Shown piece after piece: positions 5,494 to 63,190 of a stretch of 64,000 nt of DNA. Position 1 is the stretch's first letter, and each line of letters opens with the position of its first letter. Source of the DNA: Rhodospirillales bacterium (GTDB lineage: Bacteria; Pseudomonadota; Alphaproteobacteria; Rhodospirillales; JASLLZ01); contig JASLLZ010000007.1 of NCBI GenBank assembly GCA_030746775.1, positions 1 to 64,000 of the forward strand, written 5' to 3'. The position numbers and the translations under genes are program-made. Under the pieces are notes generated by a model. It was not told where the DNA came from and did not search any database. It saw only the letters and a program-made list of their open reading frames with translations.

Positions 5494-6135
5494 ATGAGCG
5501 TCAGGCCGGGGAACACCGTCCTGCTGATCCAGGACATGCAGCGCTTCCTGGCCGATGCCCAGGCCGGCATGGCCGACGTCGCGCGCCACCGCGGCGTCTC
5601 CACCGAGTTCGACGAGTACTACCAACAGGTGGCGGCGGCGATCGGCAACATCGCCGACCTGCGCGACCACCTGGCGGGCCTCGGCATTACGTCATGCCAT
5701 ACCCGTTGGGTCGGCGAGCGTCCGGCATTGATGACGTCCCTTCAACGGGCCCTCGACATCCTACCCCGGGCCGACGACGCGGCGGCACAGATCGTCGCGC
5801 CCCTGGCCCCGGCCGACGGGACGGACGTCTTCCTCAAGGGGGGCCTGAGCGCCTTTTCGTCGTCCACCCTGAGCGCCGCGCTGGCCGAACGGCGCATCGA
5901 GAACATCATCGTTTGCGGTGTCATTGCCGAGTTCGGGATTCAGGCCACGGCCCTGCAGGCCATGGATTTAGGATACCGGCCGCTGATCGTCGGCGACTGT
6001 TGCGCGGCGATGACCCACGCGGCCAGGGAGGCAACCCTCGACGGCCTGAGCTTCGGCGTCGCCAAGGTGCGGCCGTGGCGCGAGCTGTGTTACAACCTGG
6101 ACGCCTTGAAACATGACGACGTGGCTGTTCTTTAA
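5494..6135 (+). CDS. Isochorismatase-fold cysteine hydrolase
   Basis: A 213-residue isochorismatase-like hydrolase. The catalytic triad is visible as Asp14 (LLIQDMQ), the Lys of FLKGGLSAF and the Cys of IVCGVIAEF. Members hydrolyse small amides or isochorismate; with Cys present an amidase-type reaction is more likely than isochorismatase. ATG 5494 puts the first beta strand at the family-typical position; an in-frame GTG at 5437 would add 19 residues without homology. About 280 nt of non-coding sequence separates it from the corrinoid operon. The phosphotriesterase-fold gene starts 45 nt downstream on the same strand, so the two hydrolases may be cotranscribed. The substrate is unknown. Confidence 0.82.
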   Translation: MSVRPGNTVLLIQDMQRFLADAQAGMADVARHRGVSTEFDEYYQQVAAAIGNIADLRDHLAGLGITSCHTRWVGERPALMTSLQRALDILPRADDAAAQIVAPLAPADGTDVFLKGGLSAFSSSTLSAALAERRIENIIVCGVIAEFGIQATALQAMDLGYRPLIVGDCCAAMTHAAREATLDGLSFGVAKVRPWRELCYNLDALKHDDVAVL

Positions 6136-7157: not shown

Positions 7158-8201
7158 CTACAGCCAGGCCGGCGTCGGCAGGCCCTTTTCCTTCAGGAAT
7201 TCGGGATTGAACATCTTGCTCTGATAGCGCTGGCCGCCGTCGGCAAGGATGGTGACGATGGTGTGTCCGGGGCCAAGCTCGCGGGCGAGGCGGATGGCGC
7301 CGGCGACGTTGATGCCGCTCGATCCGCCGAGGCATAGCCCCTCCCCGATCAACAGGTCGAACACGACGGGCAGCATTTCCTCGTCGGGGATCCGGAACGG
7401 CAGATCGATTTTGGCTTCCGCCACGTTGCCGGTCACGCGCCCCTGGCCGATGCCCTCGGTGATCGAACTGCCCTCGGATTTCAGCTCGCCGTTCTTGAAA
7501 TACTCGTACATCGCCGCTCCCATCGGATCGGCAAGGCCGATGACGATGTCGGGGCGCTGCTGCTTGAGGAACTTGCTGACGCCGGCCAGGGTGCCGCCGG
7601 TGCCGATGGCGCAGATGAAACCATCGATCGTGCCGCCGGTCTGGCGCCAGATCTCGGGGCCCGTGCCTTCGTAATGGGCGCGGCAGTTGGCCAGATTGTC
7701 CCACTGGTTGGCCCATAGGGCGCCTTCGGGCTCGGTTTCGGCGTACTCGGCGGCGACGCGCTCCGAGACGTGGACGTAATGTTCCGGGTCGCGGTAGGGC
7801 ACCGCGGGCACCGCCATGAGCTCGGCACCGCACAGGCGCAGCATGTCCATCTTTTCCCGGCTCTGGGTCTCGGGAATGACGATGACGGTGCGGTAGCCGC
7901 GCGCGTTTCCGACCAGGGCAAGGCCGATGCCGGTGTTGCCCGCCGTGCCCTCGACCACGACACCGCCCGGCTTCAGGGCGCCGCGTTCCTCCGCGTCCTT
8001 GATGATGAACAGCGCTGCCCGGTCCTTGACCGATCCGCCGGGGTTGAGGAATTCGGCCTTGCCCAGGATCTCGCAGCCGGTGGCCCGAGAGACTTTGTCG
8101 AGGCGGATCAGCGGCGTGTTGCCGACGGCGCCGACGAAACCGTCGCCATCGTCCCCGTCGCCGACGACCCCAAGATCGCTTTCCCCCAGGCTTGCCGTCA
8201 T
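7158..8201 (-). CDS. cysK: Cysteine synthase (O-acetylserine sulfhydrylase)
   Basis: A 347-residue fold-type II PLP enzyme that replaces the acetyl group of O-acetylserine with sulfide to give cysteine. [11 protein letters not shown] carries the PLP lysine; TAGNTGIG is the phosphate/substrate loop and GTGGTLAG the glycine-rich PLP-phosphate loop. ATG 8201 is used because sequence upstream of it lacks homology. The N-terminal 22 residues are acidic and Gly-rich. The next gene (serine acetyltransferase) lies 16 nt away on the same strand, so acetylation and sulfhydrylation of serine are encoded together. No T-box or S-box leader was recognised. A related cystathionine beta-synthase-type function is possible but less likely given the partner. 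Confidence 0.9.
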
Positions 8202-8217
8202 CGCGATGGTCTCCCGT

Positions 8218-8940
8218 TCAGCTCGGCTTGCGGGCGCCTCGATGCGGTGGCTTGGCCGGCGGAGAGGGCTCGTTCGCATCGTCGCGCTCCACCTCTTCGA
8301 TGCGCTTGCGCAAGCTTTCCAACTCACCCATCAGACCGTCGAGGGCGGCGGCGACGGGATCGGGGATATCACCCCGTGGCGTACCGTAGGCGCGGAAGCC
8401 CTCGGACGCCTCGCGTGGGCTCGCCCGCACCTGCCGAGCCGGGCTGCCGACCATGGTGACGCCGGCCGGCACGTCTTTCAGAACGACCGTGTTGGCGCCG
8501 ATGCGCGCGTCTTCGCCGACCGTGATGGGGCCCAAAACCTGGGCGCTGGAGCCGATGATGGCCCGGTCGCCGATGGTCGGGTGGCGTTTCTTTTTTTGCG
8601 ATGAAACGCCGCCCAGGGTGACGCCTTGATAGAGGGTCACGTCGTCGCCGATTTCCGTCGTCTCGCCGATCACGCAGCCCATGCCGTGATCGATGAAAAA
8701 GCGCCGCCCGATGGTAGCGCCGGGGTGAATTTCGATCCCCGTCAGCATGCGCCCGATATGGGACAACAGGCGGCCGAGGAAATACCACTTCGCCTTCCAG
8801 GCGCCATGCGCCAGGCGATGAAAAATCTGCGCGTGGAAGCCGGGATAGCAGAACACGACCTCAAGGCGCGAGCGCGCCGCGGGGTCGCGTTCCATGATCA
8901 CGTCGATTTCCTGGCGCAGGCGGGCGATAATCGCTGCCAT
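8218..8940 (-). CDS. cysE: Serine O-acetyltransferase
   Basis: A left-handed beta-helix (hexapeptide) acetyltransferase of the short CysE/EpsC type, about 240 residues, making O-acetylserine from serine and acetyl-CoA. Visible motifs are [28 protein letters not shown] with the catalytic Asp-His, GVTLGG and the terminal VGSPAR. The last 60 residues form a charged, probably coiled tail ([17 protein letters not shown]). ATG 8940 is preferred over ATG 8952 since AAGGATGGA lies at better spacing from it; the difference is four residues. It lies directly upstream of cysK on the minus strand, and a bi-enzyme cysteine synthase complex is expected. Confidence 0.9.
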
Positions 8941-9027
8941 CGAACATTCCATCCTTCAATTCAACGCGTTACTTCAAAACTGGGGAAGGCGACCGCCCAG
9001 ATCAAGGTCATGGCGCCCAAAGGAAGA

Positions 9028-10452
9028 TTACGCGGGGCGCAGGTGGACCAGTTGGTCGGCGAAGGCGGCTTCGTCTTCCAGGCAGCGCAGGTCGAGGACG
9101 CAGGCGCCGTCGTGTATCCGCCCGATGACCGGAACCGGCAGCCCCCTGAGCGCCCGGGCGATCCTTTTGAGGGCGGCGCCGGAGCCGCGTTTGCCGGTCG
9201 CCGGGCGGATCACCAGGGCGGCGCTGGGCAGCCGTTCGACGGGCAGGGCGCCGCTGCCGATCTGGCTTTGGCAGGGCGCCACCGCAATCGTCGCCTTTTC
9301 CGCCAGGCAGCCGGCGAGGGCCGGCGCCAAGCGCCGTGCCTGGGCCTCGATCTCCTCGGCCGGCCGGCTCAGGTGGCGCAGGGTCGGCAGTCGCTCGGCC
9401 AATCTGTCGGGATCGCCATGCAGGCGCAGCACCTGGGCCAGGGCCGCGATGGTCATCTTGTCGCAACGCATGGCCCGCTTCATGGGATTGCGGCGGATGC
9501 GCCGGACCAGATCGGCGCGCCCGGCAATGACGCCGGCCTGCGGGCCGCCGAGCAGCTTGTCGCAGCTGAAGGTGACCAGATCGGCGCCCTGGGCCAGGGT
9601 TTCGGCCACCGTCGGCTCATGGGCAAGGCCGTAACGGGCGAGGTCGATCAGCGTGCCGCTGCCCAAATCGACGACCAACGCCACGCCGTGGTCGCGGGCC
9701 AGGGCCGCCAGCTCGCCGACCGGGACGGCGGCACTGAAACCCTCGACGGTGTAGTTGGACGTGTGCACCTTCATGAAAAGTGCCGTCCGGGGACCGACGG
9801 CGGCGGTGTAATCCTTGGCGTGAGTGCGGTTGGTGGCTCCCACCTCGCGCAAACGACAGCCCGCCCGCGCCATGATGTCGGGCATGCGGAACGAGCCGCC
9901 GATCTCGATCAGCTCGCCGCGCGACACCGCGACCTCCTTGCGCAGAGCCAGGGTATTGAGGGTCACCAGGACGGCGGCGGCGTTGTTGTTGACGGCGCAG
10001 GCCGCCTCGGCACCGCTCAGGCGCACAAGCAAGTCCTCGACGTGGCCGTCGCGTTCGCCCCGGCGCCCGGCGTCAAGGTCGTATTCCAGGTTGCAAGGCG
10101 CGCCGGCCGCCGCCGCCACCGCGGCGATGGCCTCGGGCGGCAGGACGGCGCGGCCCAGGTTGGTGTGCAACACGGTTCCGGTCAGGTTGAAGACCGCGCC
10201 GAGCGACGGCGCCGAGCGCGCCTCGATCGTCTCCCGAACCCTGTCCGCGATGGCCTCTTGGGTGGTCAGGGGCCGTGCCGCCTCGCCCTCAACGGAAAGG
10301 CGGCGGCGCAGATCGTCAAGGACCGCGCGCACCGCCTCGGTGGCGACCCGGCGCCCGTGGGTCTCAATCAGGGATTGGACGGCAGTCAGGCGCAGCACGC
10401 GGTCCACCGACGGAACGGCGGCCTGGATGGATGGCGCGTCGCGGGACCCCAT
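9028..10452 (-). CDS. selA: L-seryl-tRNA(Sec) selenium transferase
   Basis: A 474-residue PLP enzyme that converts Ser-tRNA(Sec) to Sec-tRNA(Sec) with selenophosphate. It covers the full SelA length: N-terminal SelA domain with LPSVDRVL-like start (PSVDRVL), NLTGTVLHTNLGR, EYDLDAGRRGERDGH, and the PLP lysine at K299 in FSCDKLLGGPQAG. Usually selA is followed by selB; here the next genes on the strand are cysE and cysK, and no selB, selD or selC was found in the window. A seleno-protein such as formate dehydrogenase would have to be elsewhere. All key residues appear intact, so the gene is probably functional. Confidence 0.92.
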   Translation of the reverse strand: MGSRDAPSIQAAVPSVDRVLRLTAVQSLIETHGRRVATEAVRAVLDDLRRRLSVEGEAARPLTTQEAIADRVRETIEARSAPSLGAVFNLTGTVLHTNLGRAVLPPEAIAAVAAAAGAPCNLEYDLDAGRRGERDGHVEDLLVRLSGAEAACAVNNNAAAVLVTLNTLALRKEVAVSRGELIEIGGSFRMPDIMARAGCRLREVGATNRTHAKDYTAAVGPRTALFMKVHTSNYTVEGFSAAVPVGELAALARDHGVALVVDLGSGTLIDLARYGLAHEPTVAETLAQGADLVTFSCDKLLGGPQAGVIAGRADLVRRIRRNPMKRAMRCDKMTIAALAQVLRLHGDPDRLAERLPTLRHLSRPAEEIEAQARRLAPALAGCLAEKATIAVAPCQSQIGSGALPVERLPSAALVIRPATGKRGSGAALKRIARALRGLPVPVIGRIHDGACVLDLRCLEDEAAFADQLVHLRPA

Positions 10453-12390: not shown

Positions 12391-13542
<1,152 letters not shown>

Positions 13543-37680: not shown

Positions 37681-38445
37681 ATGGCGCGACAAATGAACGG
37701 CAAGGTCGCGGTGGTGACCGGCGGCGGCGCCGGTATCGGCGAGGCCATCTGCCGGGGCTTCGCCAGGGAAGGTTGCCGCGTCGTGGTCGCCGACCGCGAG
37801 GCCGACTGGGCGGCCAAGGTCGCCCAGGACATCCAGGGCCAGGCGGTAACCACCGACGTAACCTCGGAGAGCGAGGTCAAGGCGCTCTTCGAGGCCTGCG
37901 ACGAGGCCTATGGTCGGCTCGACGTTTTGGTCAACAACGCCGGCGTCGTGCCCAGCCAAGTCAGCGCCGAGGACATGGACATGGCCGAATGGGACCAGGT
38001 CATCGCCATCAACGTTCGCGGCGTCCTCTTGTGCACCAAGTATGGAATTCCGCTGTTGAAAAGGGGCGGCGGGGCAATCGTCAACATGTCGTCGAGAGTC
38101 GGCTATCACGGCACGCCCCTGCAAAGCCACTACGCGGCCAGCAAGTTCGCCGTCCGCGGCATCACCGAATCGGTGGCCCACGAGGTCGGTCCCCTGGGCA
38201 TCCGCGTCAACTCGCTATGCCCCGGAACCGTGGAGACCGAAAAACTGCACGAACGTGTCGCCAATCGCGCCAAAACGTCGGGGCGCACGGTCGAAGAGAT
38301 CATGGAAACCACCTTCATCAAGCCAGCCGCCCTGCGCCGCACCATCGCCCCCGATGAGATATCCCAGGCGGCAATTTTCCTCGCCACCGATGCGTCGAGC
38401 GCCATTACCGGCACCCACCTCAAGATCGACGCCGGGCGGCCATGA
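37681..38445 (+). CDS. SDR family oxidoreductase, copy B
   Basis: A 254-residue SDR with TGGGAGIGEAI, VNNAGVVPSQ and YAASK (HYAASKFAV), preceded by GAAGGAGGGAAAC at good spacing from ATG 37681. The tail (IEKLHERV … AITGTHLKIDAGRP) matches the other 254-residue SDRs of the island, which supports a local gene duplication. Its stop overlaps the following enolase-superfamily gene by 4 nt (ATGA at 38442-38445). The tight spacing predicts a common substrate pathway with that enzyme, for example oxidation of a hydroxy-acid intermediate. Confidence 0.87.
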   Translation: MARQMNGKVAVVTGGGAGIGEAICRGFAREGCRVVVADREADWAAKVAQDIQGQAVTTDVTSESEVKALFEACDEAYGRLDVLVNNAGVVPSQVSAEDMDMAEWDQVIAINVRGVLLCTKYGIPLLKRGGGAIVNMSSRVGYHGTPLQSHYAASKFAVRGITESVAHEVGPLGIRVNSLCPGTVETEKLHERVANRAKTSGRTVEEIMETTFIKPAALRRTIAPDEISQAAIFLATDASSAITGTHLKIDAGRP

Positions 38446-39542
38446 AGATCGTCCGCGTCGGCGCCTACCGGGTCGATCTGCCGCGCGAGCGCACCTACAG
38501 GCTGTCGGGCGGGCGGACCAGTTCGTCCTTCGACACCACCGTGGTCAGGGTGGAAAGCGATGCCGGCCTGGTCGGCCTTGGCGAAGTGTGCCCGTTCGGC
38601 GCCGCCTACCTGCCGGCCTATGCCGCCGGGGCAAGGACCGGCATCGCCGAGGTGGCGCCGCACCTGATCGGCGAGGACCCGCGCCAGGTGGAGCGCGTCA
38701 ACCAAACCATGGACATGGCGCTCAAGGGCCACCCTTACGTCAAGTCGGCCCTCGACATGGCGTGCTGGGACCTGCTGGGACAGGCGGCGGGGATGGCGCT
38801 CTCGACCTTGCTCGGCGGGCGATTCGGCGACGATGTGGAACTCTATCAGACCATCCCCCACGGCACGCCCGACGCCATGCGCGCCGGCCTCGTTGAGGCG
38901 CGGGCCGAGGGCTATCGCCGCTTTCAGCCCAAGGTGGGGGGCGAGCCCGATACCGATATCGAGCGTATCATCGCCCTGGCGGCGGAACGCCGGGACGGCG
39001 AAGTGGTGGTGGTCGACGCCAACGGCGGCTGGCTGGCCCACGAGGCGATGCGGGTGGTCGGCGCCGTTGGCGACCTCGACATCACCATCGAACAGCCCTG
39101 CGCCACCTATGAAGCCTGCCTGGCGGTGCGCCGGCTGACCGACCTGCCCCTGGTCCTCGACGAGGTGATCGATTCGGTGGAGGCCCTGTTGCACGCCCAC
39201 GCCGACGGCGCCATGGACGCCATCAACCTCAAGCTTTCCAAGCTCGGCGGGATGACCCGGGCGCGCCAGATACGCGACCTTTGCGTGGCTCTCGGCCTGC
39301 CCATGACGATCGAGGATTCGGGCGGCGGCGATATTATCGGCACAGCCGTCGCCCATCTTGCCCAGGCAACGCCCGAAAAATACCGCTTCGGCGTCTCGTC
39401 GGGCTTCTTCAAGGTCAAGCTGAACACCACCGAAGGCGCGCCCCGCATCGCCCAGGGCCGCGTCTCAGCCCCGATCGGGCCGGGCCTGGGGCTGCGACTC
39501 CGCGCCGAAACCCTGGGCGAGCCCGTCGTCGACGTGACCTGA
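38442..39542 (+). CDS. Enolase-superfamily enzyme, hydroxyproline-betaine-epimerase-like
   Basis: A 366-residue MR/MLE protein. Barrel residues are K164 (FQPKVGG, first Lys position is Pro/Gln, second kept), Asp192/Asn194 (DANGGW), Glu217 (IEQPC), Asp240-Glu241 (VLDEV) and K264 (NLKLSKLGG), then DSGGGDI and a GPGLG end. The IEQPC…YEAC block and the AVAHLAQATPEKY segment resemble 4-hydroxyproline betaine 2-epimerase and cis-3-hydroxyproline dehydratase relatives, with both catalytic Lys positions present. It overlaps the SDR by 4 nt. This assignment rests on recalled similarity, and the exact substrate is unproven. Confidence 0.82.
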   Translation: MKIVRVGAYRVDLPRERTYRLSGGRTSSSFDTTVVRVESDAGLVGLGEVCPFGAAYLPAYAAGARTGIAEVAPHLIGEDPRQVERVNQTMDMALKGHPYVKSALDMACWDLLGQAAGMALSTLLGGRFGDDVELYQTIPHGTPDAMRAGLVEARAEGYRRFQPKVGGEPDTDIERIIALAAERRDGEVVVVDANGGWLAHEAMRVVGAVGDLDITIEQPCATYEACLAVRRLTDLPLVLDEVIDSVEALLHAHADGAMDAINLKLSKLGGMTRARQIRDLCVALGLPMTIEDSGGGDIIGTAVAHLAQATPEKYRFGVSSGFFKVKLNTTEGAPRIAQGRVSAPIGPGLGLRLRAETLGEPVVDVT

Positions 39543-45575: not shown

Positions 45576-46247
45576 ATGAAAAACAAACGGGTCGACTCCC
45601 CAGCCGAAGCGGTTGCCGATATCGCCGACGGCGCGACGGTGATGGTTGCCGGTTTTGGACGGAGCGGCGTTCCGGAAGGCCTCACCGATGCCGTCTGCGA
45701 GCGTGGCGTCAAGGGACTGACCGTCATCAGCAACAACTCAGGCACGGCCAAGACCGGCGTCGCGCGCTTGCTGTTGGAAGGCTGCGTCGAAAAAATCATC
45801 TGCAGCTTTCCCCGGGCCAGCGAATCGGGTGTCTTCAAGGACATGTTCGACGCCGGCAAGGTTGACCTTGAGCTGGTTCCTCAAGGGATACTGGCCGAAA
45901 GAATCCGGGCTGGCGGCTCCGGCCTGGCGGGCTTCCTCACCCTCACCGGCGTCGGCACCGAACTGGCCGAAGGCAAGCCGACGATGGAGGTGGGCGGCGC
46001 CGAATATCTCCTGGAAATGGGGCTGCGCGCCGATGTCGCCCTGATCAAGGCGCGGCAGGTCGATGGGCGCGGCAACCTGACCTACCGCAAGGCGGCGCGC
46101 AACTTCAATCCGATCATGGCGACGGCGGCCGATATGGTCATCGTCCAGGCCCACGAGGAGGTCCCGATCGGTGCCCTGGACGGCGAACACGTCGTCACAC
46201 CGGGTATTTACGTCGATCGCTACTGCGTCTTCCAACAGGAACCCTAG
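45576..46247 (+). CDS. 3-oxoacid CoA-transferase, subunit A
   Basis: A 223-residue alpha subunit with the AGFGRSGVPEGL start and NNSGTAKTGVARLL, and the KIICSFPRA segment. It functions as a heteromer with the gene at 46256 to transfer CoA from succinyl-CoA to a 3-oxo acid (acetoacetate or beta-ketoadipate type). Family alpha subunits provide part of the CoA site but not the catalytic Glu. ATG 45576 overlaps nothing upstream; a TATAGA box at 45516-45521 may be a -10 element (weak). The thiolase and 3-hydroxyacyl-CoA dehydrogenase nearby fit a CoA thioester degradation branch. Confidence 0.87.
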   Translation: MKNKRVDSPAEAVADIADGATVMVAGFGRSGVPEGLTDAVCERGVKGLTVISNNSGTAKTGVARLLLEGCVEKIICSFPRASESGVFKDMFDAGKVDLELVPQGILAERIRAGGSGLAGFLTLTGVGTELAEGKPTMEVGGAEYLLEMGLRADVALIKARQVDGRGNLTYRKAARNFNPIMATAADMVIVQAHEEVPIGALDGEHVVTPGIYVDRYCVFQQEP

Positions 46248-46255
46248 GCGGAAAC

Positions 46256-46939
46256 ATGGCCAGCCAAACCAAGGACGAGAGGCTCCTGACCCGCGACCAG
46301 ATGGCCAAACGGGTTGCCTTCGAACTGAGCGACGGCTGGCTGGTCAACATTGGCATCGGCATGCCGACCCTGGTCCTGCCCCACGTGCCCTCCGACCGCG
46401 ACGTGATTTTTCACAGCGAGAACGGCATCGTCGGCATGGGGCCGGCGCCGGACGATCCGGCGGACTACGACCCCGACCTGTTGACGGCGGGCAAGCAGCC
46501 GGCCTCCTTGATCGCGGGCGGCGCCATCGTCAATCATGCAGAATCCTTCGCCATCGTGCGCGGCGGGCGCCTGGACGCGGCGGTCCTGGGCGCCTTCCAG
46601 GTGGCGGAGAACGGCGATCTCGCCAATTGGAAGCTGCTTGGCGCCAAGGGCGGAAGCGTCGGCGGGGCAATGGACATCGCGGTCGGCGCCAAGCAGGTCC
46701 TGGTCATGATGACCCATGCGACCAAGGATGGCGAGCCGAAGGTGGTGAAGGCGCTCACCTATCCCGTCACGGCGCGCAACTCCGTGACCAAGATATTCAC
46801 CGACATGGCCGTCATCGCCGTCACCGCCGACGGCCTGGTGCTCGACGAAGTGGCGCCCGGCATTACCCCCGACGAGGTCCAGGCGGCAACCGAACCCGAA
46901 TTGCGGATCTCAGATTCCCTCAAGGAGATTGAGGTTTAG
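46256..46939 (+). CDS. 3-oxoacid CoA-transferase, subunit B
   Basis: A 227-residue beta subunit with catalytic Glu55 in HSENGIVGMG. GIGMPTLV and the NHAESFAIVRGG block are conserved. It starts 8 nt after the alpha-subunit stop, so the two are coexpressed. Subunit type could be ScoB, PcaJ or AtoA; the sequence alone does not separate them. Downstream, a mandelate-racemase-family gene starts 5 nt after its stop and is probably in the same transcript. Confidence 0.87.
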   Translation: MASQTKDERLLTRDQMAKRVAFELSDGWLVNIGIGMPTLVLPHVPSDRDVIFHSENGIVGMGPAPDDPADYDPDLLTAGKQPASLIAGGAIVNHAESFAIVRGGRLDAAVLGAFQVAENGDLANWKLLGAKGGSVGGAMDIAVGAKQVLVMMTHATKDGEPKVVKALTYPVTARNSVTKIFTDMAVIAVTADGLVLDEVAPGITPDEVQAATEPELRISDSLKEIEV

Positions 46940-46944
46940 GGATC

Positions 46945-48090
46945 ATGATCGTCACCGGCCTTGAGACCTTTATCGTCAATGTCCCCTTCACCGACCCAAT
47001 GGCGGGCAGCGGGCGCGGCGGCACCACCCAGGTCCTCGTCAAACTGACCTCGGACAACGGGCTGGTGGGCTGGGGAGAGAGCGCCGGGCAACTTTCCAAC
47101 GCGACCGCCGTCGAAGGCATGATCCGCCACGCCGCGCCGCTCGTCATCGGCCGCGATCCGTGGGACAAGGAGGCGATCGCCGCCAGTTTCTTCCGCCGCG
47201 GCACCGCCCACCGCTGGACCCAGCACGCCAACTTCGCCTATATCGGCATCGACCACGCGCTGTGGGACCTGTGCGGCAAGGACTGCTCCAAGCCGGTCTA
47301 TCAGCTTCTCGGCGGGGCGCTGCGCGACGAGGTCGACCACTGCTACCTGCTCAACCCGGGCACGCCGAAGTCCATCGAGCGCCAGGCGAAAAAGGCGCTC
47401 AAGCGCGGCTACGGCGTCTTCTACCTGCCCTGCGGCCGCGACGAGATAAAGGAACAGCGCATGCTGGAGGCCCTGCGCTCCACCCTCGGCCCCGAGGGGC
47501 GCATCCGCATCGACGTCAACGAACGCTGGGCGGTCAACGATGCGATCCGGTTTCTCGTCGCCTGGGACCGGGAGTTCGGCATCGAAATTTGCGAGGCGCC
47601 GGTGCCCCACGACCGGCCCGAGGCCACCAAGGAGATACGCCAGCGCGTGCCCTGCGCCATCGGCGTCAACGAATGCCTGGACAGCGAGACCCAGGTGCTG
47701 GAACTGCTGCGCGCCCGCTCGGCCGACGTCTACTGCTTCGCCCCCTACTGGGTCGGTACCCTGCGCCGCTTCGTCACCCTCAGCCACCTGGTCGCCCTGG
47801 AAGGACTGCACGTCGTCAAGCACACGTCGGGCGAACTGGGACTGAGCGCGGCGGCGGGACAGCACGCGGCGCTGTGCGCCCCCGGCCTCATCGACGGCAA
47901 CCAGCAACAGGCGGTGGACCTTGCCGACGACATCCTGACCGAGCCCATTCCCATTACTTCGGGACCCAAGTGGGGGCGCATCGAAAAACCCGGCCTCGGC
48001 GTCGAGGTGGACGAGGAAAAAGTGGCCCGCTTCCACGAGGCGTTCGAGCGCGACGGCCAATACCTGATGCCCGAGTTCCGCCGGCAGTAA
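46945..48090 (+). CDS. Enolase-superfamily protein lacking the KxK motif
   Basis: A 381-residue MR/MLE-like protein. The N-terminal cap (VGWGESAG) and barrel are intact, with metal ligands in DVNERW, CEAPVPH and GVNECL. At the position of the usual K-x-K (end of strand 2) it reads GVFYLPCGRDE, so both lysines are missing. The second-Lys/His region reads HVVKHTSGELG, where a Lys and a His occur close together. Catalysis would therefore differ from racemase/MLE chemistry, possibly using the His/Lys pair. It is 5 nt after the CoA-transferase B gene and 7 nt before the convergent thiolase. Confidence 0.8.
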   Translation: MIVTGLETFIVNVPFTDPMAGSGRGGTTQVLVKLTSDNGLVGWGESAGQLSNATAVEGMIRHAAPLVIGRDPWDKEAIAASFFRRGTAHRWTQHANFAYIGIDHALWDLCGKDCSKPVYQLLGGALRDEVDHCYLLNPGTPKSIERQAKKALKRGYGVFYLPCGRDEIKEQRMLEALRSTLGPEGRIRIDVNERWAVNDAIRFLVAWDREFGIEICEAPVPHDRPEATKEIRQRVPCAIGVNECLDSETQVLELLRARSADVYCFAPYWVGTLRRFVTLSHLVALEGLHVVKHTSGELGLSAAAGQHAALCAPGLIDGNQQQAVDLADDILTEPIPITSGPKWGRIEKPGLGVEVDEEKVARFHEAFERDGQYLMPEFRRQ

Positions 48091-48097
48091 GCGGCCC

Positions 48098-49303
48098 TTA
48101 GACCTTCTCCAAAACGGCGGCGATGCCCTGGCCGACGCCGACGCAGAGCGTCACCAGGGCATGGCGGCCGCCCGAGCGGTGCAGCTGGTTGAGCGCCGTC
48201 AGGGCCAGGCGCGCCCCCGATGCGCCGAGGGGATGGCCGATGGCGATGGCGCCGCCGTTGGGGTTGAGGCGGCTGTCGTCGGCCGCCAGGTCCATCAGCT
48301 TGAGGCAGCCCAGGACCTGGGTGGCGAAGGCCTCGTTGATCTCGATCACGTCCATGTCGGCCAGCGTCAGCCCGGCCCTTTCTAGGACCTTCTTGGTGGC
48401 CGGAACGGGTCCCAGGCCCATGACCCGGGGCTCGACCCCGGCCACGGCCCCGGCGACGACGCGGGCCAGGGGCTTGATGCCGCCGACCCTGTCGCCGGCT
48501 TGCCGGGTGCCGACCATGAGCGCGCAGGCGCCGTCGTTGATGCCCGACGCATTGCCGGCGGTGACGACGCCGTCGTCGTAGATCGGCTTGAGCCTGGCCA
48601 GCCCCTCGGGCGTGCTGTCGGGCCTCGGGTGTTCGTCTTCCTCGATGGTCCTGGTCTCGCCCCGCTTGGCGCCCGCCACTACCACCGGGCGCAACTCCTC
48701 GGCGTAGAAGCCGTCCGCCTTGGCGGCAGCGTATTTCATTTGCGAGGCAAGGGCGAAGGCGTCGCTCTCGTCGCGTCCGATGGCGTGTTCCCGGCCCACG
48801 ATCTCGGCCGTCTCGGGCATTTCGTGATCGCCGAACTGCTCGACGATCTTGCGGTTCGGAAAGCGGCTGCCACGGCTTGAATCGTAGACCTTGACCCGCG
48901 GGCTGAAGGCCTTTTCCGCTTTGGCCATGACGAAGGGGCCGCGGCTCATGGACTCGACGCCGCCGGCGACAAACAACTCGCCCATGCCGAGCTCGGCCGC
49001 GCGCGCCGCGTCAAGGATGGCGTTGAGGCCGCTGCCGCACTGTCGGTGCACCGTCGCCCCGGCAACCTCGACCGGCAAACCGCCAAGCAGCGCCGCCCTC
49101 CGCGCCACGTTGCGCGAATCCTCGCCAGCTTGGTTGGAGCACCCGATGATCACGTCTTCGACGTCGGCGCCCGGGAAGGGAACGCGTTGCAACAGGGCGG
49201 CGATGGTATCGCCCATCAGGTCGTCGGGCCGCACCCCGGCCAGGCAGCCGCCATGGCGTCCGAAGGGTGTACGGATGCCGCCGTAGAGGTATGCGTTGTC
49301 CAT
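48098..49303 (-). CDS. Acetyl-CoA acetyltransferase/thiolase
   Basis: A 401-residue thiolase II. Catalytic residues are Cys89 (VHRQCGSG), His in GHPLGASG and Cys in CVGVGQG; NEAFA is the conserved Asn-Glu loop. The beta-ketoadipyl-CoA thiolase (PcaF) group has similar length and a GLGPVPATKKVLERAGLTL block, and the adjacent CoA transferase fits such a role, but acetoacetyl-CoA thiolase cannot be ruled out. ATG 49303 has GAAGGAATCGCC upstream. It is 16 nt from the 3-hydroxyacyl-CoA dehydrogenase and shares its strand. Confidence 0.88.
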   Translation of the reverse strand: MDNAYLYGGIRTPFGRHGGCLAGVRPDDLMGDTIAALLQRVPFPGADVEDVIIGCSNQAGEDSRNVARRAALLGGLPVEVAGATVHRQCGSGLNAILDAARAAELGMGELFVAGGVESMSRGPFVMAKAEKAFSPRVKVYDSSRGSRFPNRKIVEQFGDHEMPETAEIVGREHAIGRDESDAFALASQMKYAAAKADGFYAEELRPVVVAGAKRGETRTIEEDEHPRPDSTPEGLARLKPIYDDGVVTAGNASGINDGACALMVGTRQAGDRVGGIKPLARVVAGAVAGVEPRVMGLGPVPATKKVLERAGLTLADMDVIEINEAFATQVLGCLKLMDLAADDSRLNPNGGAIAIGHPLGASGARLALTALNQLHRSGGRHALVTLCVGVGQGIAAVLEKV

Positions 49304-49319
49304 GGCGATTCCTTCACTC

Positions 49320-50858
49320 TTATGGTGCGAGGTCGGGGGTCTTGAGGGAGACGCCAAGCTGAACCCGGCGCCGGAGCCACGGGCTGGCCCGATAGCGCGG
49401 ATCGCCGGTCAGGCGTTGCATGGCGTCGAGGATGGCCAGGATACGTTCGGCCCCCAGTTCATCGCCCAAGGAGAGGGGGCCTTGGGGATAGCCGCGTCCG
49501 ATGCGCACCGCCTCGTCGATCTCGTCGGGCGTAGAGATGCGCTGCTGGGCGATGGCACAGGCGATGTTGACGACGGCGGCCAGGATGCGCTGGGCGACGA
49601 AACCGGGGCTGTCGGCGATCAGGGTCACGGGCAGGCCGGCGGCCGCGAACAGTCCGTGCCCGGCCTCGCGGACCGCCGCCTCGGTCACCGGCGTCGCCAT
49701 CAATGTGACCCGGCGGTCAAGCGCGTAAAGGGTGTCCACCGCCAAGGTGCGCCGGGGATCGAGGCCCTGTTCGGTGGCCGCCGTCGTGGCGTCGACGCCG
49801 AACGGCGTGACCAGACACAGCGCGTCGGTCGAAGGGGTGTCGCCGGCTTCCATCTCGACGGCATCCGCAACCGCCTTCAGGCACGCGGCGACCCTCTCAC
49901 CGCCCCGCCCATCCGCCTGGCTGACCCAAACACGGGCCGGAAGCTTTTCCGGCGGCGGCGTTTCGCTGGGCCGGTCGATCTTGCCGTCGATGTAGCGATA
50001 GAACCCGGCTCCGCTCTTGCGCCCGAACAGCCCGGCCTCGTAACGCAGCCGGGTCTCGGGCGTCAGGCGCATGCGGGGTTCGGCGTAGAACTGATGGAAC
50101 CCCGATTCCAGCGACGGGTGTGAGACATTAAGGCCGGTAAGATCGAACAATTCGAACGGCCCCATGGGAAATCCCGCCGTCTCGCGCATGACGCGGTCGA
50201 TATCGACCGCCGTCGCCACCCCCTCGTCGAGCACCGCCAGGGCCTCGGTGCTGTAGCCGCGTCCGGCGTGGTTGACCAGGAAAAGAGGCACGTCCTTGAC
50301 GCGCACCGCCTTGTGGCCCATGCGTTCGACAAGGCCGACCAAAAAATCTTCGACCCTGGCGTCGGTGCGTTCGCCGGCCACCACCTCGACCAATTTCATC
50401 AATGGCACGGGGTTGAAGAAATGAGCACCCGCGACCCGCTCGGGCCGGGCGCAGGCGGCGGCAATGGCGCCGATCGAGAACGACGACGTGTTGGAGGCCA
50501 GAACGCAGGTTTCGGCCACCATCGTTTCAAGCTCGGCAAAAAGCCGTTGCTTGACTCCCAAGTCCTCGACCACGGCCTCGATGACGACGGTGCAATCCGC
50601 CAGGTCGCGCAACCCCGGCACCAGGACCACGCGGGCCACCGCCGCTTCGGCCTCGGCGCGGGTGATGCGGCCCTTTTCCGCCTGGCGCAAGAGCATGCGG
50701 GAGGCGAACGCCCGGGCGTCGCGGGCCGCATCCTCGGAGACGTCGGACAGGGACACCCGGCAACCGGCGGCCGCGGCGATCTGGGCGATGCCGCGTCCCA
50801 TCACCCCGGCGCCGATGACGCCGACGCTCAGGCTTGGATCGTTGGGATCGGGTTTCAT
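49320..50858 (-). CDS. 3-hydroxyacyl-CoA dehydrogenase (PaaH-like)
   Basis: A 512-residue protein with an NAD-binding GVIGAGVMGRGIAQIAA fold, ASNTSSFS, FFNPVPLMKLVEVV and two 3HCDH C-terminal domains (about 190-285, containing VKDVPLFLVNHAGRGY, and 400-505 with GFVAQRILAAVVN), the layout of PaaH/PcaH-type dehydrogenases. It oxidises 3-hydroxyacyl-CoA to 3-oxoacyl-CoA; together with the neighbouring thiolase this ends a beta-oxidation-like sequence. ATG 50858 is preferred; residues to 50939 are not conserved. The divergent SDR starts 142 nt away. Confidence 0.87.
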   Translation of the reverse strand: MKPDPNDPSLSVGVIGAGVMGRGIAQIAAAAGCRVSLSDVSEDAARDARAFASRMLLRQAEKGRITRAEAEAAVARVVLVPGLRDLADCTVVIEAVVEDLGVKQRLFAELETMVAETCVLASNTSSFSIGAIAAACARPERVAGAHFFNPVPLMKLVEVVAGERTDARVEDFLVGLVERMGHKAVRVKDVPLFLVNHAGRGYSTEALAVLDEGVATAVDIDRVMRETAGFPMGPFELFDLTGLNVSHPSLESGFHQFYAEPRMRLTPETRLRYEAGLFGRKSGAGFYRYIDGKIDRPSETPPPEKLPARVWVSQADGRGGERVAACLKAVADAVEMEAGDTPSTDALCLVTPFGVDATTAATEQGLDPRRTLAVDTLYALDRRVTLMATPVTEAAVREAGHGLFAAAGLPVTLIADSPGFVAQRILAAVVNIACAIAQQRISTPDEIDEAVRIGRGYPQGPLSLGDELGAERILAILDAMQRLTGDPRYRASPWLRRRVQLGVSLKTPDLAP

Positions 50859-56434: not shown

Positions 56435-57175
56435 TCAGCCCTGGCGCAGATTGTAGGGTGTCGGCGCGAGATCGTCGGGACGCGTATCGATCGCCCGCGA
56501 CGCCTTGATGCGGGCCTCCATCCACCATCCGAAGCGGGTCAGGGGATAGGACAGCAGGAAATAGAGAATAAGGATGCTTCCGAATGACAGGATGGCGGAA
56601 AAACTGAAATTATTGAAGTACTTGCCAACCGCCGTCAGTTCCATCACGCCGACTTGGGAGGCCAGCGACGTGTCCTTGATGAAGACGACGAAAAAGGCAA
56701 AGGCGGGTGGCAGGATGACCTTCCAGGCCTGGGGCAGGACGACGTGTCTCAGGATCTGAATGCGGTTGAAATTCATGGCCGTGGCGGTATCCCACTGGTT
56801 GGCGTGGACGGATTCGAGCCCGGCGCGGATGATCTCGCCGATAAAAGCGGTGGAAATGATGACAATCGAGATACAGGCGATAGTGAACAGCGAATAACTC
56901 TGACCCAGTCCCTTGGAGACGAAGAGGACGAGGAACAGGAGAACCAGGAAGGGAACGCGGCGGAAGAACTCGACATAGGAAATCATGAACAGGCGGAGGG
57001 GAACGAACAGCCAGCCCGGCGTCGTGCGCAGATAGACCAGGACAAAGCCGAACAGAAAGCCGAGGCCGCAGCCGATGACGGTCATCATCAACGTCCGCGT
57101 CATCGCCCAGAACAGATAGCCCGCATTCTCCAGGGTCAAAAACCGGGGCAATTGTTCCAAGAACAGATCGAACAT
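56435..57175 (-). CDS. Amino acid ABC transporter permease, subunit 2
   Basis: A 246-residue His/Glu/Gln/Arg-type permease with 5-6 TM helices. The EAA-like loop for ATPase contact is visible as ANQWDTATAMNFNRIQIL followed by LPQAWKVILPP. Its ATG (57175) overlaps the previous gene's TGA (TGATG), so the two permeases are translationally coupled. The tail ILSFGSILILYFLLSYPLTRFG is hydrophobic to the end. It matches the SBP at 52446 in kind. No ATPase is near, so a shared or remote ATPase would be needed. Confidence 0.87.
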   Translation of the reverse strand: MFDLFLEQLPRFLTLENAGYLFWAMTRTLMMTVIGCGLGFLFGFVLVYLRTTPGWLFVPLRLFMISYVEFFRRVPFLVLLFLVLFVSKGLGQSYSLFTIACISIVIISTAFIGEIIRAGLESVHANQWDTATAMNFNRIQILRHVVLPQAWKVILPPAFAFFVVFIKDTSLASQVGVMELTAVGKYFNNFSFSAILSFGSILILYFLLSYPLTRFGWWMEARIKASRAIDTRPDDLAPTPYNLRQG

Positions 57176-57849
57176 CAGAACACCTTCGTCTTGACCCGGA
57201 AAACCCGGCGCCCGATATAGGCCAGAAGCGCGCTGGCAAGGATGGTGATCGCGACGTAGATAAAGGCGACGATGATGTAGACTTCGATGGAGCGGAAGGT
57301 GTCGGATGCCACGTTGAAGGCCCGCCCGGTCAGCTCTTCGACACCCAGGATAGAGGCCGCCGCCGTGCCCAGGATCATCCAGATGTACCAATTTGACAGC
57401 GGCGCGAAGAGCACCTTGGCGATATGCGGCACGATGACGTAGCGTACCGATTGCATCAGGCTGAAACCAAGGGACTCGGCGGCTTCCATTTCCATCTTGC
57501 GGACCGAGGCGAAGCCGCCGCGCATGATCTCGGTGATATAGGCGCCGGAATTGAGGGCGATGTTGAGCAGCATGGTCTTGTACGGCGACAGCACGATGCC
57601 GAACTCGGGCAACCCGAAAAAGATGAAAAATGCCGTCACCAGGCCCGGCGTGTTGGTGAAGAAGACGACGTAGACGTTGACCAGGTTGACAAGCCACTTG
57701 GGTCCGTAAGACTTGGCCACGGCGCCGAAAAGACCGATGGTGCAGCCGCACCAGAATCCGAGGAAGGAAAGATGAAGGGTGATCCAGGCGCCACCCATCA
57801 AATAGGGAAATTCCCGGAACGCCTCGCCCCATTGGAAGACGTATTCCAT
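57175..57849 (-). CDS. Amino acid ABC transporter permease, subunit 1
   Basis: A 224-residue permease of the HisM/GlnP type. The ATPase-contact loop reads EMEAAESLGFSLMQSVRYVIVPH. It begins the two-gene permease operon on the minus strand, coupled to the second permease by TGATG. Helices are predictable at residues about 20-45, 55-80, 88-110, 140-165 and 185-215. A perfect 7-bp dyad (57915-57930) lies about 65 bp upstream and could be an operator. The inner membrane location is evident from composition. Confidence 0.87.
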   Translation of the reverse strand: MEYVFQWGEAFREFPYLMGGAWITLHLSFLGFWCGCTIGLFGAVAKSYGPKWLVNLVNVYVVFFTNTPGLVTAFFIFFGLPEFGIVLSPYKTMLLNIALNSGAYITEIMRGGFASVRKMEMEAAESLGFSLMQSVRYVIVPHIAKVLFAPLSNWYIWMILGTAAASILGVEELTGRAFNVASDTFRSIEVYIIVAFIYVAITILASALLAYIGRRVFRVKTKVF

Positions 57850-61116: not shown

Positions 61117-62370
61117 ATGGCAAAAAAGGAAATCGAGGGCGACTGGGTCCTCGGATGGCCCGACCGCAAGCGGCCCGTGCACAAGCAAAGCAAGGACGCC
61201 GAGGGCCGCGTCATCGGCGCCCGGACGCCGATCCTCGATCAAGAGGGCCTGATCACGCCGACCGACGCGTCCTACATCGTGGCGCAACTGAGGATGCCCG
61301 AGCCGGTACATCCGGACGACTACACGGTCGCCGTCTCGGGCTTGGTCGAGCGCCCGGCCGACTTCACCCTCGACGATCTGCGCAAGCTTCCCGGCCACAG
61401 CGTGCGCGCGGTCATCGAATGCGCCGGCAACGATGGCGATTTCTTCAACTACCTTGACGAGGGGAGCAACGCCAAGAAACCGTCCATGGTCCTCGACGAG
61501 GGCGACACCGTTCACTGGCGCCAGTCCTCGCCCGACGTCGATCCCGATGCGGTCGACGATTTTCTCGAAGGCCTGCCGACGACCTGTTTTCTCAGTTCCG
61601 GCGAATGGACGGGGGTACCCCTGGCCGAGGTCCTCAACCGCTGCGGGCTCAAATCCGACGCCGTCGCGGTGCGCGTCGAGGGCTGGGACGAGGGCCGGCC
61701 CGACCCGGTGGTCCAGTACCTGTCGGCGCGGCGCACCGATTTCGAGGTCGTCGATCCCGGCATCATCAACTTCGACAAGGGCCTGCCCCTGGAAAAAGCT
61801 CTCCACCCCGACACGATTCTGGCCTGGTCCCATAACGGCGAATACCTGCGCCACGTCCACGGCGCGCCCTTGCGCTTGGTGGTGCCGGGCTGGGCCGGCA
61901 ACTGGTGGATCAAGTGGATCCACAAGATCGAGGTCATGGACCACATGCCGGACTGTTATCACCAAACCCACTATTTCATCTTCGCCAAATCACCCGACGA
62001 CCCGGACAAAAAGATGATGACCGCCATGGGGGTCAAGACCCTGATCGTCGAGCCGAGGGATGAGGATTCACCCCTTTCGATCGGCTCCCACGCCGTGCGC
62101 GGCCTGGCTTGGAGCGGCGAGGGCGCCGTCACCGATGTCGAGGTCAGCACCGACGGCGGCGCGACCTGGGCCGAGGCCCACGTCGAGAAGACGGGCGACA
62201 AATGGCTGTGGGCGCGCTGGTCCTATGTGTGGGAAGTGGGCGAGCCCGGCACCTACGCCATCATGGCCCGGGCCACCGACGAGACGGGCCGGCGCCAGCC
62301 GCAAACCGAGTGGAATTTCCAGCGCAAGCACTTCGACGGCATCGTTCCCGTCGACGTCACCGTGGAATAA
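61117..62370 (+). CDS. Sulfite-oxidase-family molybdopterin enzyme
   Basis: A 417-residue protein. The molybdenum-ligand Cys is C102 in VIECAGND, the Moco pocket includes HVHGAPLRLVVPGWAGN, and the C-terminal Mo-co dimerisation domain has the DVEVSTDGGATWAEA block. There is no signal peptide or twin-arginine motif, unlike SoxC or periplasmic SorA, so a cytoplasmic or unusual location is suggested. The SD GGGAGG lies 6 nt before ATG 61117; ATG 61111 is too close to it. Sulfite or another oxyanion/sulfur substrate is likely. It precedes the etfB gene by 16 nt. Confidence 0.82.
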   Translation: MAKKEIEGDWVLGWPDRKRPVHKQSKDAEGRVIGARTPILDQEGLITPTDASYIVAQLRMPEPVHPDDYTVAVSGLVERPADFTLDDLRKLPGHSVRAVIECAGNDGDFFNYLDEGSNAKKPSMVLDEGDTVHWRQSSPDVDPDAVDDFLEGLPTTCFLSSGEWTGVPLAEVLNRCGLKSDAVAVRVEGWDEGRPDPVVQYLSARRTDFEVVDPGIINFDKGLPLEKALHPDTILAWSHNGEYLRHVHGAPLRLVVPGWAGNWWIKWIHKIEVMDHMPDCYHQTHYFIFAKSPDDPDKKMMTAMGVKTLIVEPRDEDSPLSIGSHAVRGLAWSGEGAVTDVEVSTDGGATWAEAHVEKTGDKWLWARWSYVWEVGEPGTYAIMARATDETGRRQPQTEWNFQRKHFDGIVPVDVTVE

Positions 62371-62386
62371 GGGCGCCGGGGCGTTC

Positions 62387-63190
62387 GTGCACATCGTCGT
62401 CTGCATAAAGCAGACCCCCGATCCGGAGATGGCGCCGAGCCAGTTCCGCGTCGACGAGGAAGCCGGGACGGCGATCCCCTGGCCCGGCTCGTCCCTGGTT
62501 CCGAGCCCCTTCGACGAACAGGCGGTGGAGGCCGCGCTCAGGATCCGCGATACTCTGGGCGAGGCCAGGATCACCCTCGTTTGTTTGGGCCCCGAACAGG
62601 CGCGCGCGACCCTCAAGGCGGGCCTGGCACTGGGCGCCGACCAAGGCGTGCTGCTCTCTGACGCGGCCTTCGAAGGCGGCGACGGCGCCACCACCGCCGT
62701 GGTGCTGGCACGCGCGATTGCCAAGTTGGCGCCCTTCGACCTGATCCTCGCCGGACGCCAGGCGGCGGACACCGACGCCGGGGTCGTCGGCTGCGGCGTG
62801 GCCGAACTGCTTGACCTCGCCGCCGTCACTTTGGCCAAGGACGTGGCGGTCGAAGACGGCGGGGCGCGCGTCGTCCGCGCCCTGGCCGACGGCACCGAGA
62901 CCGTCGAGGCGCCCCTGCCATTGGTCGTCACCGTCTCCCACGAATTGGGTGCGCCGCGCCACGCCAGCCTGCGCGAGACCATGCGGGCGGCGAAAAAGCC
63001 GATCGAGGCGTGGAGCGCCTCCGATCTCGACCTGCAACCGGCGGAGGTCGGCCGGGCCGGCGCCAGGTGTGTGGTCGAGCGTCTGTTTGTGCCCGCGAGC
63101 GACGTCACCTGCGAGTTCGTCGAAGGCGCCACCGCCCGGGACCAGGCCGCCGCCCTTGTCGAGCGGTTGCGCGCGGCCGAGGTCCTATGA
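62387..63190 (+). CDS. etfB: Electron transfer flavoprotein beta subunit
   Basis: A 267-residue EtfB with VVCIKQTPDPE at the start, LAGRQAADTDAG (AMP/FAD region) and the PLPLVVTVSHELGAPRHASL recognition segment. It forms an FAD/AMP heterodimer with EtfA (start 63330) and carries electrons from flavin dehydrogenases to the quinone pool. GTG 62387 is the only good start, with a poor SD (GGGCGCCGGGGCG). Unusually, 139 nt lie before etfA. The D-amino-acid-oxidase-like flavoproteins upstream are candidate electron donors; this is inference. Confidence 0.85.
   Translation: MHIVVCIKQTPDPEMAPSQFRVDEEAGTAIPWPGSSLVPSPFDEQAVEAALRIRDTLGEARITLVCLGPEQARATLKAGLALGADQGVLLSDAAFEGGDGATTAVVLARAIAKLAPFDLILAGRQAADTDAGVVGCGVAELLDLAAVTLAKDVAVEDGGARVVRALADGTETVEAPLPLVVTVSHELGAPRHASLRETMRAAKKPIEAWSASDLDLQPAEVGRAGARCVVERLFVPASDVTCEFVEGATARDQAAALVERLRAAEVL

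Follow-up and report, generated by a model that had tools for sequence, protein, structure and literature searches.

A rare enolase-superfamily branch with the metal-binding positions and one histidine kept and the usual catalytic lysines replaced

The locus and its product

Here we describe an enolase-superfamily gene that lies, in the window (the whole 64,000-nucleotide stretch of DNA analysed), directly behind a CoA-transferase pair and facing a thiolase-like gene. L001 denotes the corresponding locus in a second species of the same genus.

45576-46247, + strand: 3-oxoacid CoA-transferase subunit A (TIGR02429, 290.1 bits, cut-off 128.5)
46256-46939, + strand: 3-oxoacid CoA-transferase subunit B (TIGR02428, 269.6 bits, cut-off 243.55)
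46945-48090, + strand: enolase-superfamily (MR/MLE-type) protein, 381 aa, Pfam MR_MLE_N and MR_MLE_C
48098-49357, - strand: 3-oxoadipyl-CoA thiolase-like gene, convergent (NF006001, 620.8 bits, just below the cut-off of 622); kept in L001
49320-50939, - strand: 3-hydroxyacyl-CoA dehydrogenase (NF006124, 633.8 bits, cut-off 508); kept in L001

Both Pfam domains exceed their gathering scores in the 46945-48090 product (MR_MLE_N, 54.6 bits for a cut-off of 22; MR_MLE_C, 115.8 bits for 29.4), and by alignment the MR/MLE-type metal-ligand positions at the ends of strands 3, 4 and 5 are occupied by D190, E217 and N242/E243; judged from its sequence, it is a true enolase-superfamily (MR/MLE) protein. 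All 17 NCBIfam models listed score below their cut-offs on this protein, the best being the muconate cycloisomerase model TIGR02534 (130 bits against 334.95). The nearest solved relative, by sequence (E 8.9e-69 with profile A1) as well as by fold, is 2PGW, a putative muconate cycloisomerase of Sinorhizobium meliloti with 28-29% identity to the window protein. Foldseek matches the modelled fold to 2PGW at E 1e-26, and structure comparison gives Z 37.0 with an rmsd of 2.7 over 361 residues, for an AlphaFold2 model of middling quality (pLDDT 70, pTM 0.64) whose barrel strands are predicted to finish at 162, 190, 217, 241, 265 and 292, adjoining the active-site residues. A literature search on 2PGW listed a single paper, on structure comparison, and no functional study; other searches gave, among the matches listed, no paper on the subfamily of the window protein.

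The window holds three enolase-superfamily genes (12391-13542, 38442-39542 and 46945-48090), and its genome yields 10 PF13378 matches, the weakest at 31 bits. The gene at 38442-39542 (+ strand) is close to cis-3-hydroxy-L-proline dehydratase, scoring 469.3 bits with NF043002, below the cut-off of 500, and its product (L018) reads Q-P-K on strand 2.

Residues of the active site

The K-x-K motif of strand 2 was placed by alignments to 2PGW, gap-free at this place, and by a 95-row MAFFT alignment. Residue counts compare 13 rows of the window protein's own family with superfamily proteins outside it: the family profile matched 107 open frames, of which 99 exceeded 250 residues; removal of duplicates left 94, and 81 of these fall outside the family. 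This survey sample is the stronger part of a PF13378 search over 41 genomes and is non-random; it added 55 fetched places, all but one above about 100 bits, to the earlier loci and left out three places above 100 bits together with those below, so enolases proper are hardly represented among the 81 proteins.

47422-47424, + strand: Y160, where K-x-K has its first Lys; Y in 13/13 family rows, K in 62/81 other rows
47428-47430, + strand: P162, where K-x-K has its second Lys; P in 3/13 and K in 10/13 family rows
47512-47514, + strand: D190, metal-ligand position of strand 3; 13/13 family rows, D in 71/81 others
47593-47595, + strand: E217, metal-ligand position of strand 4; 13/13 family rows, 81/81 others
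47668-47673, + strand: N242-E243, third metal-ligand region, strand 5; invariant in 13/13 family rows
47740-47742, + strand: A266, strand 6, where Asp or Lys predominates in other proteins; family S 10, A 3; others D 45, K 15 of 81
47818-47823, + strand: K292-H293, candidate acid/base of strand 7; invariant in 13/13 family rows, H at 293 in 56/81 others
47899-47901, + strand: N319, aligned with the Glu of most relatives; family N 5, H 6, S 2; others E 54/81

An earlier note on this DNA had read the stretch GVFYLPCGRDE as a strand 2 from which both K-x-K lysines were lost, and the alignments bear this out: the motif has become Y160-L161-P162. The identical Y-x-P occurs in two further assemblies, L001 (90% identity) and L002 (66% identity), which together with the window make up the only Y-x-P sequences among those found. 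The closest lysines, K153 and K169, lie beyond strand 2 as modelled (158-162) and neither is conserved in L001 or L002, while R165 is the sole basic residue within 155-167. Lysines shifted into neighbouring strand-2 positions, the outcome that would have undone the claim, were looked for along the gap-free alignment to 2PGW and none was seen; with K153 and K169 outside the strand and not kept in L001 or L002, this explanation was rejected. It is scarcely credible that misalignment or sequencing error masks a normal K-x-K: the protein is divergent and the draft genome consists of 203 contigs, which favours such an artefact, but three assemblies carry the same residues, the 2PGW alignment has no gap here, and the nearby lysines are neither in the strand nor kept. 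A sequencing slip in particular is unlikely because the assemblies of L001 and L002 read the same Y-x-P.

The metal-ligand positions recognised earlier in DVNERW, CEAP and GVNECL are indeed preserved, with an N-E pair (N242, E243) at the third. Column 242 (G 49, D 19, N 3 in the 81 other rows) is where D-E-type relatives have their Asp, and column 243 (E in 67/81) is where G-E-type relatives have their Glu; the H293 column is that of the strand-7 His of MR-type relatives, and Q320 and Q321 are invariant in 13/13 family rows. Beyond the earlier note, two more losses came to light, with the strand-6 Asp/Lys replaced by A266 and the strand-8 Glu column holding N319. A figure legend in PMC9706016 gives the MR-type pocket as eight residues (Lys164, Lys166, Asp195, Glu221, Glu247, Asp270, His297 and a Glu, printed there as Glu307); by the list in that legend, four of the eight positions are kept (D190, E217, E243, H293) and four are changed (Y160, P162, A266, N319).

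Like the window protein, 2PGW has Tyr for the first K, the strand-7 His and, further on, GNQ, and its strand-6 column is Gly where the window protein has A266; it differs in reading Y-L-K, with the second Lys retained, and in having Asp at 242. With Tyr at the first K-x-K position and a strand-7 His, the window protein falls in this Y-first (2PGW-like) group. Mandelate racemase (1mns, 1dtn) has the fold (Z about 35) and the D, E, E and His positions in common with it; where mandelate racemase has K164, K166, D270 and the final Glu of the pocket (Glu317 in MR itself), the window protein has Y, P, A and N. Among the residues expected of the mandelate racemase subgroup (K-x-K, His, Asp and Glu, as listed in the PMC9706016 legend), H293 alone is present. 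Where the muconate lactonizing enzyme subgroup has K-x-K and a strand-6 Lys, the window protein has Y160, P162 and A266, and its score with the cis-3-hydroxy-L-proline dehydratase model NF043002 is 65.4 bits against a cut-off of 500. The D-glucarate dehydratase subgroup (1ec7, 3vdg, 4it1) resembles it in fold and in the Asn of the third metal-ligand column, presumably the metal ligand Asn289 of GlucD; GlucD has K-x-K and a His-Asp dyad, and in the window protein the Asn is present and K-x-K and the Asp are absent (TIGR03247, 52.1 bits against 828.7). In the mannonate dehydratase subgroup Arg/Tyr replace K-x-K; position 160 of the window protein is Tyr, not Arg, and NF043051 scores 92.4 bits for a cut-off of 550. 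Y-x-P was not seen in any solved relative whose alignment was examined.

Across the 81 superfamily proteins outside the family, Lys stands at both K-x-K positions in 27, at exactly one in 49 and at neither in 5. These five (L043, L087, L088, L093 and L096, presumably ManD/RspA-type) are Lys-free like the window protein, but all have Arg first (R-x-Q in four, R-x-Y in one), and a basic residue is missing at both positions in 0 of the 81. A separate oddity concerns L030, L034, L038 and L057, which have Gly in the strand-3 metal-ligand column (LLFGTHG) and K-x-D on strand 2, a group that seems to be without one metal ligand. Odd active sites are thus not rare across the superfamily. A passage in PMC3197473 describes enolase-superfamily families that differ in the third metal ligand and the acid/base residues, and a passage in PMC9795676 distinguishes seven subgroups by their catalytic residues; set against these passages, the window case is a variant within a known rule.

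Order of the losses, distribution and maintenance

In addition to the ten Y-x-K sisters of the alignment (L003-L010, L022, L024), two more were found in G1055 and G1060 (read as L122 and L120), bringing the total to 12 Y-x-K and 3 Y-x-P among 15 sequences, with the second Lys kept in all 12 sisters found. The sisters are 44.5-50% identical to the window protein (tblastn) and have the N-E and K-H motifs and, further on, QQ in common with it; unlike it, they have K162, S266 and G244 (10/10 for the last two). The Y-x-P clade is correspondingly marked, among other swaps, by A266 and C244, and R165 is found in all three of its sequences and in 0/8 sisters compared. In a 94-row tree, the Y-x-P rows form a single clade (support 100/99), as do the whole family of 13 rows (100/100) and the complete set of 17 Tyr-160 rows (99/92); 2PGW is absent from this tree, its residues being taken from pairwise alignments.

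Since the wider group and 2PGW carry it, the change from K to Y at the first position is old. The idea that the K-x-K loss is peculiar to the window protein and its Y-x-P relatives hence holds for the second lysine and fails for the first, whose replacement is common to the 17-row clade. The simplest reading is that K-x-K would have been lost stepwise, the first Lys early and once, the second later and once. The enolase superfamily is a standard example of a single fold gaining new reactions through acid/base swaps around a fixed metal site, and here the tree locates two loss steps (K-x-K to Y-x-K to Y-x-P); members of three or more phyla still carry the Y-x-K intermediate, so each loss could be studied for its effect by direct measurement. 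Practical importance is limited, given that the group is rare.

Ten family members come from named MAGs and the others from further genomes, their hosts belonging to Pseudomonadota, Chloroflexota (SAR202) and Verrucomicrobiota. Strong matches (E <= 1e-70) were found in 3/317 genomes of the order (own included), in 1/398 genomes of a phylum sample (own only) and in 4/385 genomes of a class sample (own included), one of the last being the more distant L025; around two sister genomes, 2/7 and 2/16 genomes match at E <= 1e-100, centres included. Viral contigs gave distant relatives only (6 loci, 24% identity), and the 74 plasmid records all lie below 60% identity, with 40 listed at ~30%. For SAR202 group I, PMC6946804 reports expansions of the enolase superfamily, with the suggestion that they help these bacteria to use chiral organic matter.

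Between the window and L001, dN/dS of the gene is 0.061 (YN00) or 0.186 (NG86), and seven neighbouring genes range over 0.038-0.085 (YN00) and 0.049-0.207 (NG86). Being like that of the neighbouring genes, this ratio indicates that the window protein is maintained; a pseudogene or relaxed selection is unsupported, with dN/dS inside the neighbour range. Together with the invariant metal columns, K292, H293, Q320 and Q321, it argues for a maintained function, which may or may not be catalysis. A non-catalytic or weakly active homologue (a pseudoenzyme, a partner subunit or a binding protein) is unlikely, though a contender to be taken seriously. The change of four of the eight MR-type pocket positions speaks for it; so, for a partner subunit, does a second enolase-superfamily gene directly downstream of the sister gene in L003, L006 and L007, and the solved GlucD/GlucDRP heterotetramer (4gyp) would be a precedent for unequal pairs. 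The invariance of the metal-ligand columns and H293 and a dN/dS like that of enzymatic neighbours point the other way, and the window gene has no adjoining enolase-superfamily gene (the nearest is at 38442-39542).

Gene neighbourhood and a proposed reaction

Only 5 nt (46940-46944) separate the stop codon of CoA-transferase B from the start of the enolase-superfamily gene in the window. The link to a CoA transferase that had been drawn from this spacing carries little weight as evidence: the pair is kept in L001, but there the distance is 120 nt, so tight coupling is not a fixed trait. A tblastn search (E 1e-3) for CoA-transferase A/B covered 14 loci (L001-L010, L119-L122) and matched in L001 alone, with none in L002 or the 12 sister loci, which span 3.9-13.1 kb and several of which reach contig ends. 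Linkage as a family trait was rejected on this count, the association being found in two species of one genus only. In these two, the common set comprises TauD, RidA, DHDPS, MaoC and a quinone oxidoreductase on one side, next CoA-transferase A/B with the gene itself, and beyond them the thiolase, the 3-hydroxyacyl-CoA dehydrogenase and an SDR.

Such neighbours would suit a cycloisomerase or lactone-forming step in a beta-ketoadipate-like route, ahead of the CoA-transferase and 3-oxoadipyl-CoA thiolase, and we regard that as quite improbable. The CoA-transferase, thiolase and 3-hydroxyacyl-CoA dehydrogenase adjoin the gene in the window and in L001, and muconate cycloisomerases are among the close folds of the model; against this, TIGR02534 stays at 130 bits for a cut-off of 334.95, the strand-2 and strand-6 lysine columns are lost, and the muconolactone isomerase/enol-lactonase family is absent among the neighbours scanned, which are part of the window's genes.

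In the other loci the surroundings differ. L002 has 375 bases upstream (to the contig end) and oligopeptide-type ABC genes downstream. L003, L006 and L007 have two permease-like ORFs upstream that resemble the window permease (Pfam was run on one of those in L003), with an ABC ATPase also upstream in L003 and a family-3 binding protein in L006. Single other loci carry an FAD oxidoreductase (L009), PhyH (L010) or a D-serine-dehydratase-domain protein (L007). The window itself has, within 12 kb downstream, a family-3 binding protein, an ABC permease, two FAD oxidoreductases and PhyH. These transport and oxidoreductase neighbours hint that an amino-acid-like substrate is as plausible as a plain dicarboxylate, and our best guess at the substrate type is an amino-acid-like or dicarboxylic acid. 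The second genes of the tandem loci (L003 7173-8306, L006 7202-8335, L007 7165-8292) are themselves Y-x-K enolase-superfamily genes, and the pairs might form a mixed oligomer.

The explanation that we tentatively prefer is an active metal-dependent enzyme of a rare 2PGW-related subfamily, with H293 as one base and the chemistry of a one-face lyase or dehydratase. D190, E217 and N242 or E243 would coordinate a divalent metal, which in turn would activate the carboxylate of the substrate, and H293, at the end of strand 7, would act on the alpha-proton from a single face, removing or returning it. In an ancestor that had Y-x-K as well as the His, each face could have had a base (K162, H293); the change of K162 to proline would leave H293 as the one conventional base, so that one-face chemistry (beta-elimination) fits better than racemisation. 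In the window genus the product would probably be a carboxylic acid, passed on to the CoA-transferase, dehydrogenase and thiolase encoded alongside. Counting for this explanation are both Pfam domains, the 2PGW-like modelled fold, the invariant metal positions and K292-H293, the dN/dS of 0.061, the single origin of Y-x-P within the Y-first clade, and the CoA-transferase pair upstream in the window and L001. Counting against it, H293 stands without a strand-6 Asp partner (A266), the strand-8 Glu column is N319, four of the eight MR-type pocket positions are changed, and only three Y-x-P sequences are among those found; Y-x-P is also missing from the solved relatives whose alignments were examined, L002 and the 12 sister loci lack the CoA-transferase link, and the structural model is of middling quality.

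If two bases act after all, the protein could be an epimerase or racemase in which H293 serves one face, the opposite face being served by Y160, or else by K292 or by R165, which belongs to the clade-specific P-C-x-R stretch. All 13 family rows have Y160 and K292, R165 is in 3/3 Y-x-P sequences and 0/8 sisters compared, and L-Ala-D/L-Glu epimerase is, in a passage of PMC5808125, an established two-base superfamily member. We nonetheless rate this possibility as rather low: all three residues are only candidates for a base, K292 comes just before H293 in the strand and is expected to face the other way, and the ordinary second base, K162, is gone.

Returning to the preferred one-face enzyme, the suggestion of a changed mechanism through other residues, made earlier for the stretch HVVKHTSG, gains ground in that the altered active site is real and maintained and the stretch holds the invariant K292-H293; dehydration would be one possible outcome. 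More doubtful is a bolder form of the proposal, in which a single unassisted strand-7 His carries out enolase-type chemistry in a site stripped down in two steps, yielding a new reaction that feeds CoA metabolism; the other acid/base columns of that site appear to hold no Lys, Arg or acidic residue.

Several smaller features of the two loci were recorded. In the window, 62357-63037 (- strand) is a 226-aa frame with no Pfam match, and 56435-57832 (- strand) has its ABC permease domain at residues 279-440 only of a 465-aa frame, which therefore either has a long N-terminal part without a Pfam match or starts further in. L001 has PrmA-like methyltransferase and TPR genes between the enolase-superfamily gene and the thiolase (7626-9454), absent in the window, and its 120-base gap (5881-6000) contains an inverted repeat spotted by eye, AGAGCATT ... 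AATGCTCT, which perhaps forms a hairpin.
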